Shown here one piece after another: positions 28,051 to 34,998 of a stretch of 64,000 bases of DNA. A program made the translations under genes and the position numbers. The number at the start of each line of letters is the position of its first letter. Positions within the stretch are counted from its first letter, which is position 1. Origin of the DNA: Alloactinosynnema sp. L-07 (GTDB lineage: Bacteria > Actinomycetota > Actinomycetes > Mycobacteriales > Pseudonocardiaceae); NCBI RefSeq assembly GCF_900070365.1, contig NZ_LN850107.1, forward strand, positions 434,001-498,000. Direction: 5' to 3'. A model generated the notes under the pieces. That model was not told the origin of the DNA. It did not search any database and saw only the letters and a program-made list of their open reading frames with translations.

Positions 28051-29262
28051 ATGGACGAGAACGAGATCGGTCGGCGGATTCGCGAGGTGCGCTCGTGGCG
28101 TGGGATGGCGCTGCGCACGGCCGCGGATCTCGCTGGATTCTCGTATGGCTACTTGGCGCAGATCGAGCGCGGCGAGAAGCCGGTGAACAGCCGCAACGTC
28201 CTCGAAGCGATTGCATTCGCGCTGAGGGTCGATCCGTCGCAGTTGACCGGCCAGCCATGGGCGCCGGTTGACACGAAAGGGAAGGCCGCGCTCGCGACCG
28301 TTGCCGACGTCGAGACGGCCTTGGAGGTGTACGAGCGCGGACATGATCCCGGTGTCGAGCTGAGGCCGTGGCCGGAGCTTGCCTCCGACATCGCTCAGCT
28401 CATGGACCTGACTCACGTTCATGCGGACTATGCGGCGCAAGGTGCGCTCGTTCCGCGCCTGCTCGCTGAGCTGCACGCGGCCTACGTGCGTCTCCCCGAA
28501 CGCCGCGCCGATGTGCTTCTCGCGCTCATCCACTGCTACAGCTCGGCATGTTGGACAACAAAACGCTTGGGCGGCCGTGGACTTCCGACTATCGCGGCGC
28601 GATTGGCACAAGAGTGCGCCGAAGAACTTGGCCTGCCAGCGTGGATCGGCTACGCGACGTGGCTCCGCGGCGATGCCACCGGGCAGCTAAGCCGCGACAT
28701 GCAGTATCGGCGCTGTGTCAGCATGGCCGACCAACTCTCGGGAGCATTGGACGACGCAGACGTGGCGCAGGCATACGGGATGTTGCAGCTCAGCGCCGCG
28801 CTCGCCGCGGCGGCCCGTGCAGACCGCGACACGGCCGAGTTGCATCTCACCGAGGCGGCGGGAATCGCTGCCAGGTTGGAAGCCGAGGTGGGTTCGTTCG
28901 CTCATCTCTGGTTCGGGCGAACCAACGTCGGAATCTGGCGTGTCGGATTGGCAACCGAGTTCGGTGACGGGCCGAAGGTTGCGGAGATCGCGCGGGACGT
29001 TCACCCCGAACTGATTCCGTCTCCAAGCCGGCAGGCGGAGTTCTGGGCCGACCTTGGCCGGGCGATGTTCCAAGACGCGAAGTCGCGCGATCAGGGGCTT
29101 ACGGCGTTGCTGCGAGCGGAAGAGTTGGCGCCGCAACGGATCCGCAATGACGTCTTCGTTCGGGAGGCGGTCTCCGACCAGCTTCGCCGTGCACGGCGAG
29201 AGTCGGGTGGGCGTGAACTTCGGGGCTTGGCCTATCGCATGGGCGTAGCGCCAAACGGGTGA
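28051..29262 (+). CDS. XRE-family regulator with TPR-like C-terminus
   Basis: The protein has 403 residues from ATG 28051 (MDENEIGRRIREVRSWRGM). Residues about 5-65 form a Cro/C1 HTH (LRTAADLAGFSYGYLAQIERGEKPVNSRNVLEAIAFAL). The rest is all helical with repeated Ala/Leu/Glu-rich pairs (LGRAMFQDAKSRDQGLTALLRAEELAPQRIRND), a TPR-like array typical of large actinobacterial XRE regulators that control RiPP or antibiotic clusters and bind peptides or partner proteins. No Shine-Dalgarno is clear; TAGTCT lies upstream. It is the first gene of the plus-strand cluster ending at the JmjC oxygenase. GC3 is lower than in the core genes. Confidence 0.85.
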   Translation: MDENEIGRRIREVRSWRGMALRTAADLAGFSYGYLAQIERGEKPVNSRNVLEAIAFALRVDPSQLTGQPWAPVDTKGKAALATVADVETALEVYERGHDPGVELRPWPELASDIAQLMDLTHVHADYAAQGALVPRLLAELHAAYVRLPERRADVLLALIHCYSSACWTTKRLGGRGLPTIAARLAQECAEELGLPAWIGYATWLRGDATGQLSRDMQYRRCVSMADQLSGALDDADVAQAYGMLQLSAALAAAARADRDTAELHLTEAAGIAARLEAEVGSFAHLWFGRTNVGIWRVGLATEFGDGPKVAEIARDVHPELIPSPSRQAEFWADLGRAMFQDAKSRDQGLTALLRAEELAPQRIRNDVFVREAVSDQLRRARRESGGRELRGLAYRMGVAPNG

Positions 29263-29341
29263 ACTCGACCCGTGTGTACTTCTGGTGCACAAACTGATCT
29301 AGGTCACTCATAACGTCGTCTCCGATACAGGAGGTGACGAC

Positions 29342-29839
29342 ATGGTGATCGTGTTCGCGGTCGCAGGTACCCACTTCGCTGCACTCTTGTTGGTGGCGGT
29401 GGTGGGCCTGTGCCTGAATGGCTTGGCCGTGCTGTTGGAGCGCCGTCGAGACGCTCGCCGTAGGGCGACTGAGTTGGCTGTTGCCGTGGCGATCGTTCGT
29501 GGCCGAGCGAGTGCACTTTCCACGCCTGACGTGTCCACGCCTGCCTATGTCAGCCCGACGGGTGGGAGTGGACTCCTGACTCGCATCTGCCCGTCGGGTG
29601 TTCCACCGCTGCTGGATGCGCTCACCGCGCATACCCCCGCCAGCAGCCGCACGGCGAAGAGGCGGCGCCCCTCTGCCGGGTCGCGTTTCCGGCCACCGTG
29701 CGATTCCGGCGAGGCGCAGGAAATGCGTGGCGAGACCGCTGACTCGCTGTCGACCGTGCCTCGCAGGCCGACCGGCACGGCGGCGTGGGCGACGCCGTGC
29801 GGGTCCGCCGGAACGCTCGGTGGGCGAGTCTCCAGATGA
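29342..29839 (+). CDS. Single-pass membrane protein, unknown
   Basis: The protein has 165 residues from ATG 29342, preceded by a perfect AGGAGG with 7-nt spacing. The N-terminal hydrophobic segment (VIVFAVAGTHFAALLLVAVVGLCLNGLAVLL in part) is one membrane helix, followed by a positively charged stop (ERRRDARRRATE). The remaining about 110 residues are Pro/Ser/Arg-rich and probably cytoplasmic and disordered. The next gene starts inside its stop codon (ATGA 29836-29839), which supports the whole length being translated. No family is recognised. Confidence 0.62.
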   Translation: MVIVFAVAGTHFAALLLVAVVGLCLNGLAVLLERRRDARRRATELAVAVAIVRGRASALSTPDVSTPAYVSPTGGSGLLTRICPSGVPPLLDALTAHTPASSRTAKRRRPSAGSRFRPPCDSGEAQEMRGETADSLSTVPRRPTGTAAWATPCGSAGTLGGRVSR

Positions 29840-30078
29840 GGGTCATCGCAACCGAACCGATCTGGGTCCGTGGAGTCCATGAGCCGCAGCCGGTGCACAT
29901 GTTGGGTACCAGCGATGGTCGCCCTAGAAGGGTGGATGGGGGCGAGCGGTACGGGTACGTTGCGGTCGCGGTTTGCCGCACATGGGTCAGGGCTGGGGAA
30001 ATCGCGATGCCAAACACCGCGGCGGAAATCTGTGCGGTCTGCCGTTCGGTCGCGGAGCGCATGGGCGGGGTTGTCTGA
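29836..30078 (+). CDS. 80-residue unknown protein, second of a coupled trio
   Basis: ATG 29836 overlaps the preceding TGA, and TGA 30076-30078 overlaps the next ATG (TGATG). The sequence MRVIATEPIWVRGVHEPQPV leads to strands (ERYGYVAVAVCRTWVRAG), and the end EICAVCRSVAERMGG has a CxxC pair. It could be a small beta domain with a metal-binding tail. The strict coupling on both sides indicates a fixed stoichiometry with its neighbours. No family is recognised. Confidence 0.62.
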   Translation: MRVIATEPIWVRGVHEPQPVHMLGTSDGRPRRVDGGERYGYVAVAVCRTWVRAGEIAMPNTAAEICAVCRSVAERMGGVV

Positions 30079-30497
30079 TGAAGCGCGTCGCAAGTTCGAC
30101 ACATCAGCCGTCCGCATATCGGGTGTCAGCGAGGAATCATCTGGATGCGGCGGCAGCGCAGGTACTTAGGGACCAGGTTGCGCGCCTATGCCGCAACGGA
30201 TTTCGGGCGCTTCCGCTACCGAACCTGTTCGCCAAGGTCGACGGGCTCTACCTGTATCGCCCAAGCGCCAACGGGTACATCGACACGATCGTGATCCGAT
30301 CGGCGGATTGCGCTGTGGCAGCACGAGTGCGTGACCGGTTCGATCCCGCGGATCCGCTGCCCGAAGACGCGGCTCTGTGGTCGACCAGCGGTGAGCTGGA
30401 TTCGGTCGTGGACAAGGTGTTCGGAGATCTTCGAGACGAGCGCGACCGACGTGGCGCCATGCGCCATTCGGGCCATCTCGGCATCCAACAATCCTGA
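30078..30497 (+). CDS. 139-residue unknown protein, third of a coupled trio
   Basis: Start at ATG 30078 (TGATG overlap). The sequence includes YRVSARNHLDAAAAQVLRDQVARLCRNGF, then FAKVDGLYLYRPSANGYIDTIVIRSADCAVAARVRDRFD, then a helical acidic end (ELDSVVDKVFGDLRDERDRRG). The middle resembles a small alpha/beta domain; no catalytic motif is visible. It is followed after 115 bp by the candidate precursor peptide. It could be a leader-peptide recognition or immunity protein, but this is speculation. Confidence 0.62.
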   Translation: MKRVASSTHQPSAYRVSARNHLDAAAAQVLRDQVARLCRNGFRALPLPNLFAKVDGLYLYRPSANGYIDTIVIRSADCAVAARVRDRFDPADPLPEDAALWSTSGELDSVVDKVFGDLRDERDRRGAMRHSGHLGIQQS

Positions 30498-30612
30498 GCG
30501 TCGGCCTGTGTCGCCTTCTGTCGCGCGGGTGAGCGGATCACCCGATAAGTGGTAGGCGCCGACGCCTGATCCGCACCAGCCTGAACAACGAGGAACGAAG
30601 GGAGGGAATGAA

Positions 30613-30771
30613 ATGACCGATGAATCCGGCCTGGTTGTTGGTGTCCAGCACCTGTCCGTCGTGCGCGACCGCTTCGACGTGGCCAAGGGCGACCCGTCGA
30701 AGGATGGCGGTGGGGATGGTCACGGCGACGCTGGCGGCGATGGCCTGAACATCCCGGAATCCATGGAGTAA
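30613..30771 (+). CDS. 52-residue Gly/Asp-rich peptide, candidate RiPP precursor
   Basis: ATG 30613 follows GGAGGG by 6 nt; TAA is at 30769-30771. The N-terminal half (MTDESGLVVGVQHLSVVRDR then FDVAKGDPSKD) reads as an ordered leader. The C-terminal half is GGGDGHGDAGGDG followed by LNIPESME, a low-complexity core rich in Gly, Asp and one His, without Cys. A terminator-like hairpin follows within 10 bp, and then a JmjC-type oxygenase, an arrangement typical of a precursor expressed above its modifying enzyme. Asp or His in the core would be plausible hydroxylation targets. No known RiPP class matches. Confidence 0.6.
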   Translation: MTDESGLVVGVQHLSVVRDRFDVAKGDPSKDGGGDGHGDAGGDGLNIPESME

Positions 30772-30780
30772 CCGACCACG

Positions 30781-30829
30781 GCGGCGGATCGGCTCAGCGT
30801 TGCGCCGGTCCGCCGCTGTCTTGTCTTCG
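30781..30829 (+). terminator. Attenuator-like hairpin after the precursor gene
   Basis: GCGGCGGATCGG (30781-30792) pairs with CCGGTCCGCCGC (30805-30816) over 12 bp, with one wobble and a 12-nt loop, followed by TGTCTTGTCTTCG. Partial termination here would give more precursor than enzyme mRNA. Confidence 0.65.
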
Positions 30830-30844
30830 CTAAGGAGCACACAC

Positions 30845-32059
30845 GTGGATCACTACCTGATCGAGGCCGTCGAGAAAGCGTTGGGCTGGAACGGATCTCA
30901 GATGTTAGGGCAACGGTTCGCCAAGGGGACCATGGAGGATGCCGCACTCTGCACTCGGCTTCTCACGCCGACTCGATTGCTCGATGCGATCATGCGCCGC
31001 TCGCTGACTTCGCCCCAATTGCGCTGCTTCCAAGGCGGTGCGGAGTTGCACCCGGATGCCTACCTGGCCAACGCCGTGACACGGCGTGGCCAGACCACAC
31101 CGATGGCTCGCATGGACAAGCTGGGCGACCTCATCCGATCCGGCTGTACCGTCGTTCTCGACTCGTTCGACACCTTCGACCCGACGATGGAGGTCGCGTG
31201 CCGCGCGTTGCAGTGGTGGTCTCGGGAGCTGGTGCAGGTCAACACATACTTGACCACGAACGAGGCTTCGGGATTCGACCTTCACTGGGATGACCATGAC
31301 GTGCTGATCGTTCAGCTCGGCGGGGAGAAGACCTGGGAAGTCAGGGGTGCGTCCCGCGCAGCGCCCATGTACCGCGACGCTGAACCCAACCGGGTGTCCA
31401 GCGACGAAGTGGTCTGGGCTGGCACCATGCGCGCGGGCGACGTCATGCACATCCCGCGCGGGTATTGGCACCAAGCCACCCGCACTGACTGCGGCGACGG
31501 CTACAGCCTGCACGTCACGTTCGGGTTCGTGAAGCGAACCGGCGTTGACTGGCTGGCCTGGATCGCAGATCGGTCACGTGAGGAAGAAGTCTTCCGCACC
31601 GACCTCAAACGGTGGGCACTTCCTGCCGAGCAGCGGGCACAAGACCTCACGCTCAGCGCGCTCGTGCCCGGCCTGCTGGCGAAGTACCCACCCCTGGAGT
31701 ACCTCACTACCCGAGAACTGGAGCGCCCGGCTCATCGAGCGGTTCGCACGCACGGCACCTTCGGCCCGCCGATGGACATAGTGTGCGTGACCGAGTTTCC
31801 ACCGCACATCAAGTCCAATGACGACACCATCGACGTGCTCGCGGCAGGCAAGGCGATCCGATTCGCCGCTGCCGCCGAACCCGCTGTTCGGCTGTTGCTG
31901 TCGGGCAATCCCGCCAACGTCGCTGCTGTCGCAACCGCGACCAGCATTGATGCACGCGTCATCGCAGAAGCTCTCACCAACGAGGGGCTCTGCGTCGAAC
32001 TGACCGATGAACTCGCCACCGGCTATGTCGGCGTGGTGGGCCAGCGCGCGTCAAACTGA
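30845..32059 (+). CDS. JmjC / Cupin_4-type 2-oxoglutarate oxygenase
   Basis: The protein has 404 residues from GTG 30845, with GGAG 7 nt upstream. The cupin core shows FDLHWDDHDVLIVQLGGEKTWEV and AGDVMHIPRGYWHQA. The Fe(II) facial triad is H147, D149 and H209. This places it near the ribosomal-oxygenase group (RoxA/MINA-like), which hydroxylates Arg or His side chains of proteins. A C-terminal winged-helix-like part (EPAVRLLLSGNPANVAAVATATSIDARVIAEAL in part) also fits that family. Directly after the Gly/Asp-rich peptide, it is the likely modifying enzyme. It ends 9 bp inside the convergent kinase gene. Confidence 0.85.
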   Translation: MDHYLIEAVEKALGWNGSQMLGQRFAKGTMEDAALCTRLLTPTRLLDAIMRRSLTSPQLRCFQGGAELHPDAYLANAVTRRGQTTPMARMDKLGDLIRSGCTVVLDSFDTFDPTMEVACRALQWWSRELVQVNTYLTTNEASGFDLHWDDHDVLIVQLGGEKTWEVRGASRAAPMYRDAEPNRVSSDEVVWAGTMRAGDVMHIPRGYWHQATRTDCGDGYSLHVTFGFVKRTGVDWLAWIADRSREEEVFRTDLKRWALPAEQRAQDLTLSALVPGLLAKYPPLEYLTTRELERPAHRAVRTHGTFGPPMDIVCVTEFPPHIKSNDDTIDVLAAGKAIRFAAAAEPAVRLLLSGNPANVAAVATATSIDARVIAEALTNEGLCVELTDELATGYVGVVGQRASN

Positions 32060-32902
32060 ACGCAGCTCCACCAGCAGCACGTCCGCCGCCGCCTGCGCGG
32101 CCACCGACAGCGGTGTTGACTCCCCGCGCCGGGCGGCGATGCGGACAGCATTTGCACACTGCAATAGCTGAGCGAGCTTTCCCGAGCGTGATGTCATGTC
32201 CGCCGAGAACTCGTGCTGAACACGAGCGGCCAGTTCGGGATCGTGCAACGACGCCTGCCACAGGCACGCCGCGTCGAGTCCACGCGGCCCCGCGCCCCAG
32301 TCTTCCCAGTCGAGAAGGTAGCCGTCGACGGTGAGGTTGCCCCAGTGCACGTCCGTGTGTGCGGTCGCCCACTCGTCCACGGATGTGTCCAGATCGCCGA
32401 ACACCTCGGTTATCCGCTTGGTCAGATGAGCCTGACTCATCCCGACCCGCTCAGTTGAGTGCGATCCAAGCGCGGCGAGCGAGTCCCGAAGTTCCGTCCA
32501 CCATGAGCCCGGCAGCGTGACGGCGGAAGCAGGGGTATCCACGATCGGGGCGTTGACTAGTTCGACCTCGTCCGCGCGCCAGACAACATCGCGCTCGGGG
32601 TCGACCCAAGTTGCCCCTTGGAACCACTCCGGTTTGCGCACGCCGCGGATGGTCGCTGCGGCCTCCAGACCGACCCACACCGCGCTGTTGATCCGCCAAC
32701 GCTGGCGGCGCTCGACCCGCACCCACGTTCCCGCGGCAGTGCGGAAGCCCTCGGTGGCACCGTAGATGCCGAACACGACTGATGATCGTTCAAGCGTGAC
32801 CCCTAGGGTGCGCTCGACCCTGTCGAGGACGTCGTCGTGCGGTTGTTCCCGCACATCGAAGACGGGGTTTGGGACGACGCTGGACGGCTGAGCGACGCTC
32901 AC
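32051..32902 (-). CDS. APH-family (aminoglycoside phosphotransferase-like) kinase
   Basis: The protein has 283 residues from GTG 32902 (GAAGGG 8 nt upstream). The catalytic loop HTDVHWGN (182-189) and metal-binding DWED (198-201) define the APH/choline-kinase fold. The N-terminal lobe (ERSSVVFGIYGATEGFRTAAGTWVRVERR) is short. The substrate is unknown; members phosphorylate antibiotics, sugars or small molecules. It converges with the oxygenase gene, overlapping by 9 bp. It could be self-resistance or tailoring for the cluster, or an independent gene. Confidence 0.8.
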   Translation of the reverse strand: MSVAQPSSVVPNPVFDVREQPHDDVLDRVERTLGVTLERSSVVFGIYGATEGFRTAAGTWVRVERRQRWRINSAVWVGLEAAATIRGVRKPEWFQGATWVDPERDVVWRADEVELVNAPIVDTPASAVTLPGSWWTELRDSLAALGSHSTERVGMSQAHLTKRITEVFGDLDTSVDEWATAHTDVHWGNLTVDGYLLDWEDWGAGPRGLDAACLWQASLHDPELAARVQHEFSADMTSRSGKLAQLLQCANAVRIAARRGESTPLSVAAQAAADVLLVELRSV

Positions 32903-33032
32903 AAGGACGCCCTTCGATTGGACAAGACGGGGGCAGTACATGATGCACCCTCCGTGCTTGCCTTGTCACAGCAGGGGGCGACGACTGCTGGATAGTTACA
33001 CGTAGACTCACGAATGATCTGCGAGGTGATCG

Positions 33033-34055
33033 GTGGCTGCGGCCACCTTGTGTAACGTCGCAGGCTGGGAGCGGCGATGTCTGTCACAGTTGCCGCGTCC
33101 GACTGAGTCAGATGCGGAGTCCGTGACGTTGGACGGGGTGACCTTGCCGCCGGATATTGCAGAGTTGAGTCACAGCTTGTTGGAGTGGTTGTACGACCAC
33201 TATGACGACGGGGCTGATACTCCGGGCGTGGGCGAGTTCTTCGAGAGTCGTGCCGCGGCGAGGGCCGAGCTCGGTTATCTTCTCGTTCAGTATCTTGCGA
33301 GCCGCGACTTGGTGAAAGACTGGTCAACGCTGGGTGGGCCTGATGCCCGCATCACCGCTCGCGGCCTGGATCTTGTCCAACAGATTCGTGCGCAGCGCGC
33401 GGGCGATCCAGGTGAGCGAACACGTGCGTTGCGACGCATAATGCTTCGCTGGCTGGACGATCACGAGCGGAGAGCCGAGACGGTCACGAACTGGGACGAC
33501 TTCCTTGTCAGTCCGTCGGCCCGCCACAACGGCGTGACCTTCGGGCTCATCGACGTTGCTCGTGAGGCGGATTACCTCGTTCGGGTCGGTCTAATAAGTG
33601 GTGGCTCTCACCAGTCCGGGCCTGGAATGTTGCGGCCAAGGCTCACACATAATGGTCGAGACTGTGTAACGGATTTTGGGGGAGCTGTGGCTGAGTATCT
33701 GCGAGCAGTAAATGCTGGCGGCACGGTAAATGTGGCAGTGAATGGCGACCGTCCTCAGGTTGCTGTCGGTCAGAACATTGCGCAGAATCGGAATGATTCC
33801 GTCGTGATGCCGCAGTATGAGCCACTCGCAAATGCGCTCCGCGAGATCCTCGGCAAGGTTTCAGGCTGGGAGCTCGATGATGACGACAAGAGCGACGTCA
33901 AAGCTATCGCTGGCGAGTTGCTCGACGAGGTAGCGCGCGACGAGCCTGACGAGGGGGCAATCCGACGTAACGTCCGGGCCATCGGACGAATCCTGAACAG
34001 CATCGCCATGAACCCTGACGTGCAAACCGCGCTTGCGGGCCTCGTTGTCGCCTAG
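33033..34055 (+). CDS. Unknown two-module protein, winged-helix-like, possible defence gene
   Basis: The protein has 340 residues from GTG 33033 (GAGGTG upstream); a GTG near 33123 (VTLDGVTLPPD) is an alternative. Two helical modules (about 40-110 and 125-205) each look like winged helices (ARAELGYLLVQYLASRDLVKDW; HNGVTFGLIDVAREADYLVRVGLIS). Then comes a Val/Asn-rich linker (GGTVNVAVNGDRPQVAVGQNIAQNRND) and a helical C-terminus (DDDDKSDVKAIAGELLDEVARDEPDEGAIRRNVRAIGRILNS in part). The linker plus C-terminal helix resembles ends of several actinobacterial defence-like proteins. No catalytic motif. TAGACT (33003-33008) is a possible -10. Confidence 0.6.
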   Translation: MAAATLCNVAGWERRCLSQLPRPTESDAESVTLDGVTLPPDIAELSHSLLEWLYDHYDDGADTPGVGEFFESRAAARAELGYLLVQYLASRDLVKDWSTLGGPDARITARGLDLVQQIRAQRAGDPGERTRALRRIMLRWLDDHERRAETVTNWDDFLVSPSARHNGVTFGLIDVAREADYLVRVGLISGGSHQSGPGMLRPRLTHNGRDCVTDFGGAVAEYLRAVNAGGTVNVAVNGDRPQVAVGQNIAQNRNDSVVMPQYEPLANALREILGKVSGWELDDDDKSDVKAIAGELLDEVARDEPDEGAIRRNVRAIGRILNSIAMNPDVQTALAGLVVA

Positions 34056-34269: not shown

Positions 34270-34680
34270 GTGAGCGAGCGCAGCCTGGTCCTGGTTAAGC
34301 CGGACGGTGTGAGCCGTGGTCTCGTCGGCGAGGTCATCTCGCGTATCGAGCGGAAGGGGCTGACGATCGTCGCGCTTGAGTTGCGCAACGTCGACCGCTC
34401 GCTGGCCGAGCAGCATTACGCGGAGCACGCTGAGCGCCCGTTCTTCGGTGACCTCCTGGAGTTCATCACCTCTGGTCCGGTCGTGGCGCTCGTGGTCGAA
34501 GGCCCGCGTGCGGCGGCGGCGTTCCGCCAGCTCGCGGGCGGTACCGACCCGGTCGAGAAGGCAGCTCCCGGAAGCATCCGCGCAGACTTCGGCCTAGAGG
34601 TCCAGTACAACCTCGTGCACGGCTCCGACTCGCCCGAGTCCGCCGAGCGTGAGGTCAAGCTCTGGTTCCCTGACCTCTGA
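34270..34680 (+). CDS. ndk: Nucleoside diphosphate kinase
   Basis: The protein has 136 residues from GTG 34270 (GAGGAG 6 nt upstream). It transfers the gamma-phosphate from ATP to NDPs through a phosphohistidine. The sequence opens [20 protein letters not shown], has [26 protein letters not shown], and NLVHGSDS with the catalytic His117; it ends KLWFPDL. It is complete and of normal length. Its third-position GC is lower than in downstream core genes and more like the accessory cluster. Next to it lies a truncated second ndk, suggesting this copy arrived with the mobile DNA. Confidence 0.96.
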
Positions 34681-34714: not shown

Positions 34715-34753
34715 TAGTCAAGTGCCCACTAGTCCCTAGTGGGCACTTGACTA
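34715..34753. repeat. Perfect 18-bp inverted repeat at accessory/core junction
   Basis: The left arm at 34715-34732 (TAGTCAAGTGCCCACTAG) and the right arm at 34736-34753 are exact complements, separated by TCC. It lies between the complete ndk and the truncated ndk. It may be a terminator of the first copy or the remains of an attachment or recombination site. There is no U-tract. Confidence 0.8.
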
Positions 34754-34998
34754 AGCCGTTCTTCGAGTCCCTGCTCGAATTCATCACCTCCGGTCCGGTC
34801 GTGGCGCTCGTCGTCGAGGGCCCCCGCGCCGTCTCGGCGTTCCGCCAGCTCGCGGGCGGCACCGACCCGGTCGACAAGGCCACCCCGGGCACCATCCGCG
34901 GCGACTTCGGCCTCGAGGTGCAGTACAACCTGGTGCACGGCTCCGACTCGGCCGAGTCCGCCGAGCGCGAGATCAAGCTCTGGTTCCCGAACCTCTGA
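34753..34998 (+). pseudogene. ndk: 5'-truncated second copy of ndk
   Basis: The reading frame [27 protein letters not shown] through [23 protein letters not shown] aligns with residues about 57-136 of the complete copy, with roughly 85% nucleotide identity by eye. The first about 56 codons, including the nucleotide-binding KPDGV loop, are missing. The catalytic His is present, but without the N-terminus the protein would not fold. Third positions are almost all G/C, as in core genes, and a strong terminator follows. I infer this is the remnant of the native gene. Confidence 0.88.

Follow-up and report, generated by a model that had tools for sequence, protein, structure and literature searches.

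Cinnamycin provides a case of Asp beta-hydroxylation in a ribosomally synthesized and post-translationally modified peptide (RiPP), where the reaction is carried out by a hydroxylase of another enzyme family than the JmjC proteins considered here. Asp beta-hydroxylation has also been described in the nitrilobacillins, in which it is catalyzed by the MNIO enzymes PesH and PesI, according to the cited part of that report (PMC13060819). In the biphenomycin pathway, BipG hydroxylates ornithine in the precursor peptide (+16 Da), and PbsQ does likewise on coexpression, as stated in the cited parts of two reports (PMC12707348, PMC12257519). The available part of a further study describes folds resembling the RiPP recognition element (RRE) that are fused to PF08007 domains in fish and algae, with bacterial homologs (~30% identity) in RiPP-like contexts (PMC12710340). 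Here, we analyzed a stretch of 64,000 nucleotides from Alloactinosynnema sp. L-07 (NZ_LN850107.1, positions 434,001 to 498,000 of the forward strand; hereafter "the window"), in which a gene for a 52-residue Asp/Gly-rich peptide is located directly 5' of a gene for a JmjC_2 oxygenase. The best reading of the sequence comparisons is that this locus represents an undescribed RiPP-type family with a JmjC-RRE oxygenase, and that it is not a member of any named RiPP class. To the more specific reading, that the locus is a RiPP-type unit in which the window peptide would serve as the JmjC substrate, we assign a probability of roughly 0.7.

The putative precursor peptide is encoded at 30613..30771 on the + strand, and its assignment is based on homologs, substitution patterns and reciprocal linkage. 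It has the leader MTDESGLVVGVQHLSVVRDRFD..., the tail GDPSKDGGGDGHGDAGGDGLNIPESME and the core GGGDGHGDAGGDG. A protein search recovered 38 homologs at E ≤ 0.1, with lengths of 44–86 residues; those with names are annotated as hypothetical or uncharacterized proteins, and those assigned to an organism are from actinobacteria, except for one "uncultured bacterium". The ratio of nonsynonymous to synonymous differences (pN/pS) in eight peptides of the GGGDGHG type (40 codons) was 0.56 in the leader half and 0.23 in the core half, as compared to 1.50 and 1.53 in the other two frames of the same set. Six Streptomyces-type peptides (40 codons) gave values of 0.21 and 0.13 for the two halves. The peptide is a real gene, under purifying selection in its own frame only, and the frame conservation on which the original prediction depended is thereby borne out. 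Across clades the leader remains recognizable while the tails differ. Purine-rich stretches resembling ribosome-binding sites precede both the peptide (GGGAGGG, 30600-30606) and the JmjC start (AAGGAG, 30832-30837). The window peptide did not match the NCBIfam or Pfam precursor models at E ≤ 0.1. Among eight other precursors, the only NCBIfam matches at E ≤ 1 were to SdrC/SdrD/ClfB, at E ≥ 0.17 and for one precursor; seven of the eight were also compared with Pfam, and none of these seven had a match at E ≤ 1.

The association between peptide and oxygenase was recovered whichever gene was searched first. A scan of the JmjC protein against genome contigs yielded 43 loci. By their titles, 26 are actinobacterial, several of these being near-identical, and each of the 26 has, 5' of the JmjC gene, a short open reading frame (ORF) whose leader is related and whose tail is rich in Asp and Gly. 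The pair was also found on plasmids from Nocardia, Streptomyces and Pseudonocardia, in each of the three records fetched; six plasmid records in total contained most of the enzyme. Among 397 genomes of the order to which the window belongs, the JmjC protein was identified in nine at E ≤ 1e-60, and a peptide was found in each of the nine. Starting instead from the peptide, six matches were obtained in the same genomes at E ≤ 1e-4, all immediately 5' of JmjC, with 20 to 118 bases between the end of the peptide match and that of JmjC; since all six adjoin JmjC, there was no orphan peptide at this threshold. In the three genomes where JmjC was identified and the peptide search had no match, the peptides are more divergent. 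In the two most divergent loci of the order (L054 and L056, equal to L098 and L100) they were identified by profile, with E 9.3e-4 and 2.4e-5, and the third of these genomes belonged to the profile training set. Clade B (L059-L061, L071, L072, L084), another branch within the actinobacteria, has a tail that consists only of DNDGND. The suggestion that homologous oxygenases would have a conserved short ORF upstream was thus upheld.

The search also reached beyond the actinobacteria. Of the more distant loci L027-L043, 12 of 17, all acidobacterial, have an upstream ORF that fits the leader pattern [SG]GL[LIVF]..., followed by tails such as DTDGSDAADTDGSD. A profile built from 18 actinobacterial peptides identified the peptide of a Planctomycetota locus (L030) at E 6.4e-7. 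The candidate from Paceibacterota (L039) was chosen by eye; it satisfies the composition rule given below and is missed by the profile. L032 shows the tail alone because the contig starts inside the peptide gene, and the upstream DNA of L040 and L042 was too short to judge. The leader pattern matched 26 times in 1,059,498 bases on both strands, each time 5' of JmjC, or 21 times in 20 loci after dropping five re-fetched copies. It measures specificity and not discovery, because it was written after the peptides had been seen. The actinobacterial peptides closest to the window mostly fall outside the pattern, and clade B is covered by it except for L085, which narrowly fails.

Of 17 still more distant JmjC_2 loci from a family search, 12 carry other Asp/Gly-rich peptides. 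Ten of these peptides begin with an acidic stretch like MSLNDDDI and contain repeats of the type GQHDGGADGGADSG, and the other two have the form LRDEDMETV...DTQDADGTDQ. The 17 loci had been supposed to be free of peptides. With twelve of them carrying one, the notion that other JmjC_2 proteins lack a peptide was rejected; the label contrast of a tree built on that assumption and the control rows of the profile are void as controls, and the composition rule described below, which compares JmjC with other genes, takes their place. One of the ten belongs to a second JmjC_2 gene in the genome of the window itself (L120, C1 ~4.7215-4.7235 Mb), with the peptide MSLEDDDIRSGG... and HDGGADGG repeats, in the gene order peptide, JmjC_2, Suc_Fer-like protein (PF06999) and a gene which we take to be CutA-like. 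L057 has a short and weak candidate, chosen by eye and missed by both the profile and the composition rule, and no Asp/Gly-rich peptide was seen upstream in L073, L074, L075 and L078. In L073 (39-2373, + strand), the JmjC_2 gene directly follows a SagB-family peptide dehydrogenase (TIGR03605, 104.6 bits vs a cut-off of 78.4), and the ORF 3' of it is presumably MFS-like. A sample of 396 genomes from the phylum contained ten further JmjC loci outside the genome of the window, with an Asp-rich upstream ORF in six and none in four by a similar filter. L029 encodes a tandem pair of Asp-rich precursor ORFs 5' of a single JmjC gene.

We also compared the regions upstream of JmjC genes with those of other genes by composition. 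The rule, set after the peptides had been seen, demanded four or more Asp, a D/G/N/S/T/A share of 55% or higher and no more than 5 R/K/P/C in the last 30 residues. It was satisfied upstream of 68 of 93 JmjC loci as compared to 3 of 301 further long genes from these regions, two of the three being overlapping frames in the window. With the re-fetched copies removed by hand, the count was 57 of 75 (Fisher 1.6e-47, kinship ignored). Three additional JmjC loci with too little upstream DNA stand outside the count, and several of the misses are loci with a peptide known from its leader. By these sequence comparisons, the predicted peptide-JmjC pairing recurs in several bacterial phyla.

The oxygenase (404 aa, 30845..32059, + strand, GTG start) matches PF08007 at E 6.6e-22 and has the architecture of ribosomal oxygenases by predicted fold. 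The metal triad H147, D149 and H209, already named in the original prediction together with the JmjC/Cupin_4 assignment, is intact and invariant in all 33 aligned sequences, the window included. Residues 303-404 (31751..32056, + strand) form a C-terminal winged-helix or RRE-like domain. Folded alone (model m66d8cceeb06a, pLDDT 84.8), it is predicted to have strands at 19-22, 26-31 and 34-39 and helices at 40-49, 57-64 and 68-77. Foldseek searches with this domain alone matched McbBCD chain 2 (E 0.010, probability 1.00) and TbiB1 (E 0.019, probability 0.99), and the VIA Z scores were 7.1 for MccB, 6.8 for McbBCD, 6.5 for TbiB1, 6.2 for PbtF and 5.6 for PqqD. None of the Foldseek matches to RREs reached E ≤ 0.001, and the arrangement of strands and helices is common to ROX winged helices; the domain also resembles the winged helix of NO66 and MINA. 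In sequence profile searches at E ≤ 1, the window domain had no match, and the other signals were limited to PqqD for 2 of 31 members (best E 0.0021) and TIGR04353 for 4 of 31 (best E 0.0012). As modelled, the C-terminal domain resembles leader-binding RREs.

Neighborhoods were compared in 61 loci, with 6.5 kb per side where the contig allows; L101 duplicates L026. Clustering, with Pfam applied to representatives, identified an APH-like protein in 35 loci and, in 22 loci each, an aldo/keto reductase and a Suc_Fer-like protein. These partners follow the JmjC gene, and the APH-like and Suc_Fer-like proteins never occur in the same locus (0 of 61). In the window, the APH-like gene is the only member of these partner families. 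It encodes a 296-aa kinase (32051..32941, − strand; APH E 3.1e-5) that is convergent with the JmjC gene and overlaps it by 9 nt, and an APH gene is found beside JmjC in all nine loci of the order. The residues H195, D197, N202 and D211 are conserved in 35 of 35 APH-like proteins and presumably represent the HxDxxxxN catalytic motif and the downstream Asp of APH-type kinases. Likewise, D103, Y108, K133 and H173 (L005 numbering) are conserved in 21 of 21 aldo/keto reductases, and we take them to be the catalytic residues. Two Pseudofrankia loci (L018, L020) contain the peptide, JmjC and the aldo/keto reductase together with a Suc_Fer-like protein in the place that the APH-like protein takes in most other clade-A loci, and so the two families look exchangeable. 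The aldo/keto reductase was considered as an essential partner and rejected: it is present in 22 of the 61 loci, with two more added by tblastn (L002, and L016, where the gene is truncated at the end of the contig), and the genome of the window has no close homolog (best E 7.6e-4 over 76 aa). In L023 from Actinocorallia, the reductase 3' of JmjC matches over 57-81 residues only and may be broken, and no APH-like match was obtained. Neither the APH-like protein nor the Suc_Fer-like one matched a solved structure in sequence at E ≤ 0.1. Among the matches listed in a literature search, there was nothing on Suc_Fer with precursor peptides or on Asp-rich small ORFs with JmjC.

Taken as a pathway, the hydrophobic leader of the peptide would be bound by the fused RRE-like winged-helix domain, as its fold suggests, and the Asp/Gly tail would be fed to the JmjC center, where core residues may be oxidized with Fe(II) and 2-oxoglutarate. 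That the peptide is the substrate of the oxygenase we consider very probable. A dedicated peptide for the oxygenase had been postulated from the window sequence, and the genomic linkage, the conserved frame, the layout of leader and tail and the RRE-like domain fused to the enzyme all argue for it. The nature of the reaction is a separate matter. FIH, another JmjC enzyme, acts on Asn and His. Its hydroxylation of C3 of protein residues has been found to include L-Asp, as stated in the cited part of the report (PMC9814778). Tails were sampled by hand, partly on composition, and no residue other than Asp and Gly is common to all 26 of them. Since Asp is present in 26 of 26 tails and FIH hydroxylates C3 of protein residues, beta-hydroxylation of Asp is our first choice for the JmjC step, by analogy and at odds slightly better than even. 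The presence of a kinase beside a hydroxylase suggests that the new hydroxyl could be phosphorylated, in which case the APH-like protein would act on the oxidized product. In the sister loci, an aldo/keto reductase may be added, or a Suc_Fer-like protein may take the place of the kinase.

The oxygenase could instead modify the peptide elsewhere than at Asp, either by acting on Gly, Asn, His or Ser or by crosslinking or backbone cleavage, a competing explanation that has less than even odds. Gly is as frequent as Asp in the sampled tails (26 of 26), followed by Ser (24), Asn (20) and His (11), and the Gly-rich loop targeted by NO66, GGGNHQH in human RPL8 (sequence checked), resembles GGGDGHG in the window; we take H216 to be the NO66 target site in RPL8. 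Macrocyclization by 2-oxoglutarate dioxygenases has reportedly been observed for RiPPs. However, Asn is absent from 6 of the 26 tails and His from 15, and His as a common target, one of the two residues put forward at the outset, was therefore rejected. In the Streptomyces-type tails, PWP replaces the GHG of the window, and most retain one His near the end (LNHAA/LNHAE/LNHVE). The proposal that the peptide is secreted or serves as a signal found no backing either, exporters and signals having been sought only through Pfam on selected genes.

An unlikely alternative holds that the peptide is a regulator, an inhibitor or a metal buffer of the JmjC protein, the true substrate being located elsewhere, for example in a ribosomal protein. 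The structural relationship of the enzyme to the ribosomal oxygenases fits this explanation, an Asp-rich peptide could bind metal and an XRE regulator is encoded close by; however, the tails vary widely between clades and some grow into long repeats with the leader kept, as would be expected for substrate cores, and a pathway better accounts for the RRE-like domain and for partners such as the kinase, the reductase or the ferredoxin-like protein. It is highly improbable that the locus is an accessory defense or toxin-antitoxin type module with the peptide as its small component. The distribution is sparse, with JmjC in nine of the 397 genomes examined from the order, and the XRE regulator has weak matches to control proteins in PADLOC, but the JmjC protein, the APH-like protein and the three small ORFs had no match at E ≤ 0.01 in that scan, from which the peptide itself was left out, and the partners belong to metabolic enzyme families. 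A defense system was rejected for lack of PADLOC support for JmjC or APH. The reading of the peptide as a substrate has to accommodate two observations that weigh against it. The precursor profile did not place any of the twelve acidobacterial loci at E ≤ 0.01 (best L038, 0.016), and the kinship of these peptides therefore rests on leader pattern and position. Also, the core half is more conserved than the leader half within both of the peptide types for which pN/pS was calculated.

The remaining genes of the locus, all on the + strand, are located upstream of the peptide, and every gene named in the original prediction was found at its place. The first encodes a regulator of 403 aa with an XRE-type helix-turn-helix (28051..29262; PF13560 HTH_31 E 2.5e-9; family F8). 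It had been described as a regulator of the tetratricopeptide repeat (TPR) type; the HTH_31 domain is present, whereas Pfam shows no TPR in the regulator itself, and the regulator 5' of one related locus has sub-threshold TPR matches only. Similar regulators are encoded near seven other of the 61 compared loci, and L001 encodes a protein that is 43% identical to that of the window. Three proteins without assigned function follow, of 165 aa (29342..29839, no Pfam family), 80 aa (29836..30078) and 139 aa (30078..30497, no Pfam family). The overlaps of 4 nt between the first and second and of 1 nt between the second and third agree with the earlier description, and these small ORFs could therefore be translationally coupled. 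Neither they nor the peptide belong to a Pfam family, and NCBIfam gave nothing meaningful for the four (one stray match, E 0.022). The 165-aa protein had no homolog by tblastn among the loci fetched at that stage, and pieces 30-36% identical to the 139-aa protein were found in two loci of the same genus, L049 and L052. The G+C content is 0.63-0.66 at the locus as compared to ~0.70 over most of the window, and it also falls around 6-8 kb and 36-39 kb. No RNA elements were identified at Rfam gathering scores within 26.5-34.5 kb, and a promoter and terminator scan of the locus performed no better than on shuffled sequence. Adjoining the locus is a 340-aa protein (33033-34055, + strand), the C-terminal third of which weakly matches PADLOC PDC-M14B (E 8.4e-5). 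Further downstream, two very similar ORFs, 34270-34680 and the shorter 34747-34998 (both + strand), suggest a tandem partial duplication; the first is presumably nucleoside diphosphate kinase-like.

If the peptide is processed as proposed, bacterial JmjC_2 proteins gain a concrete candidate substrate that adjoins them in the genome, with a chemistry that is testable with two genes. This would define a RiPP type in actinomycetes and Acidobacteriota, with precursors that match no NCBIfam or Pfam model as far as tested, and would tie the ribosomal oxygenases to the leader-binding domains of RiPP enzymes. A broader reading, which we offer tentatively and consider rather doubtful, joins all these loci into a multi-phylum RiPP superfamily of ROX-type JmjC-RRE fusions. 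Its Asp-Gly peptides, some with one short motif only and others with long repeats of DGTD or HDGGADGG, would be converted into poly-beta-hydroxyaspartate peptides, perhaps for metal binding, with a kinase or ferredoxin-like second step, and the winged helix of NO66 and MINA would share its origin with the RRE. If so, the eukaryotic ribosomal oxygenases would be descendants of RiPP enzymes or have a common ancestor with them.

The statement that the locus fits no known RiPP class holds in part. The peptide is indeed without a match in NCBIfam or Pfam, and among the matches listed in the literature on JmjC with RiPPs, the precursor families described here were not found; yet, by the cited parts of the reports, JmjC hydroxylases occur in biphenomycin biosynthesis and JmjC-RRE fusions have been described in PMC12710340. 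The likeness to BipG, BpmG and PbsQ is that a JmjC or cupin-like 2-oxoglutarate oxygenase is encoded in a RiPP cluster. As those clusters are described in the cited parts, the ornithine hydroxylase is one of several enzymes, beside MNIO, B12-radical SAM, arginase-like and protease genes, none of which was recognized in the window by Pfam or NCBIfam, with the ten proteins encoded between 27.0 and 34.1 kb scanned. Here, in contrast, JmjC is the sole recognizable modifying oxygenase and the precursor is Asp/Gly-rich, so that the two systems are set apart by description. With the nitrilobacillins, as far as the cited part describes them, and with cinnamycin the locus would share hydroxy-Asp in a ribosomal peptide; the enzyme families differ, and the likeness would be one of chemistry. 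The ribosomal oxygenases NO66, MINA and YcfD modify ribosomal proteins in trans, whereas the window enzyme has a peptide gene directly 5' of its own. The JmjC-RRE proteins of PMC12710340 are alike in family and fusion; the cited part of that study names no precursor, partner gene or taxon for the bacterial homologs, and the present analysis adds the precursor families, the partners and the distribution.

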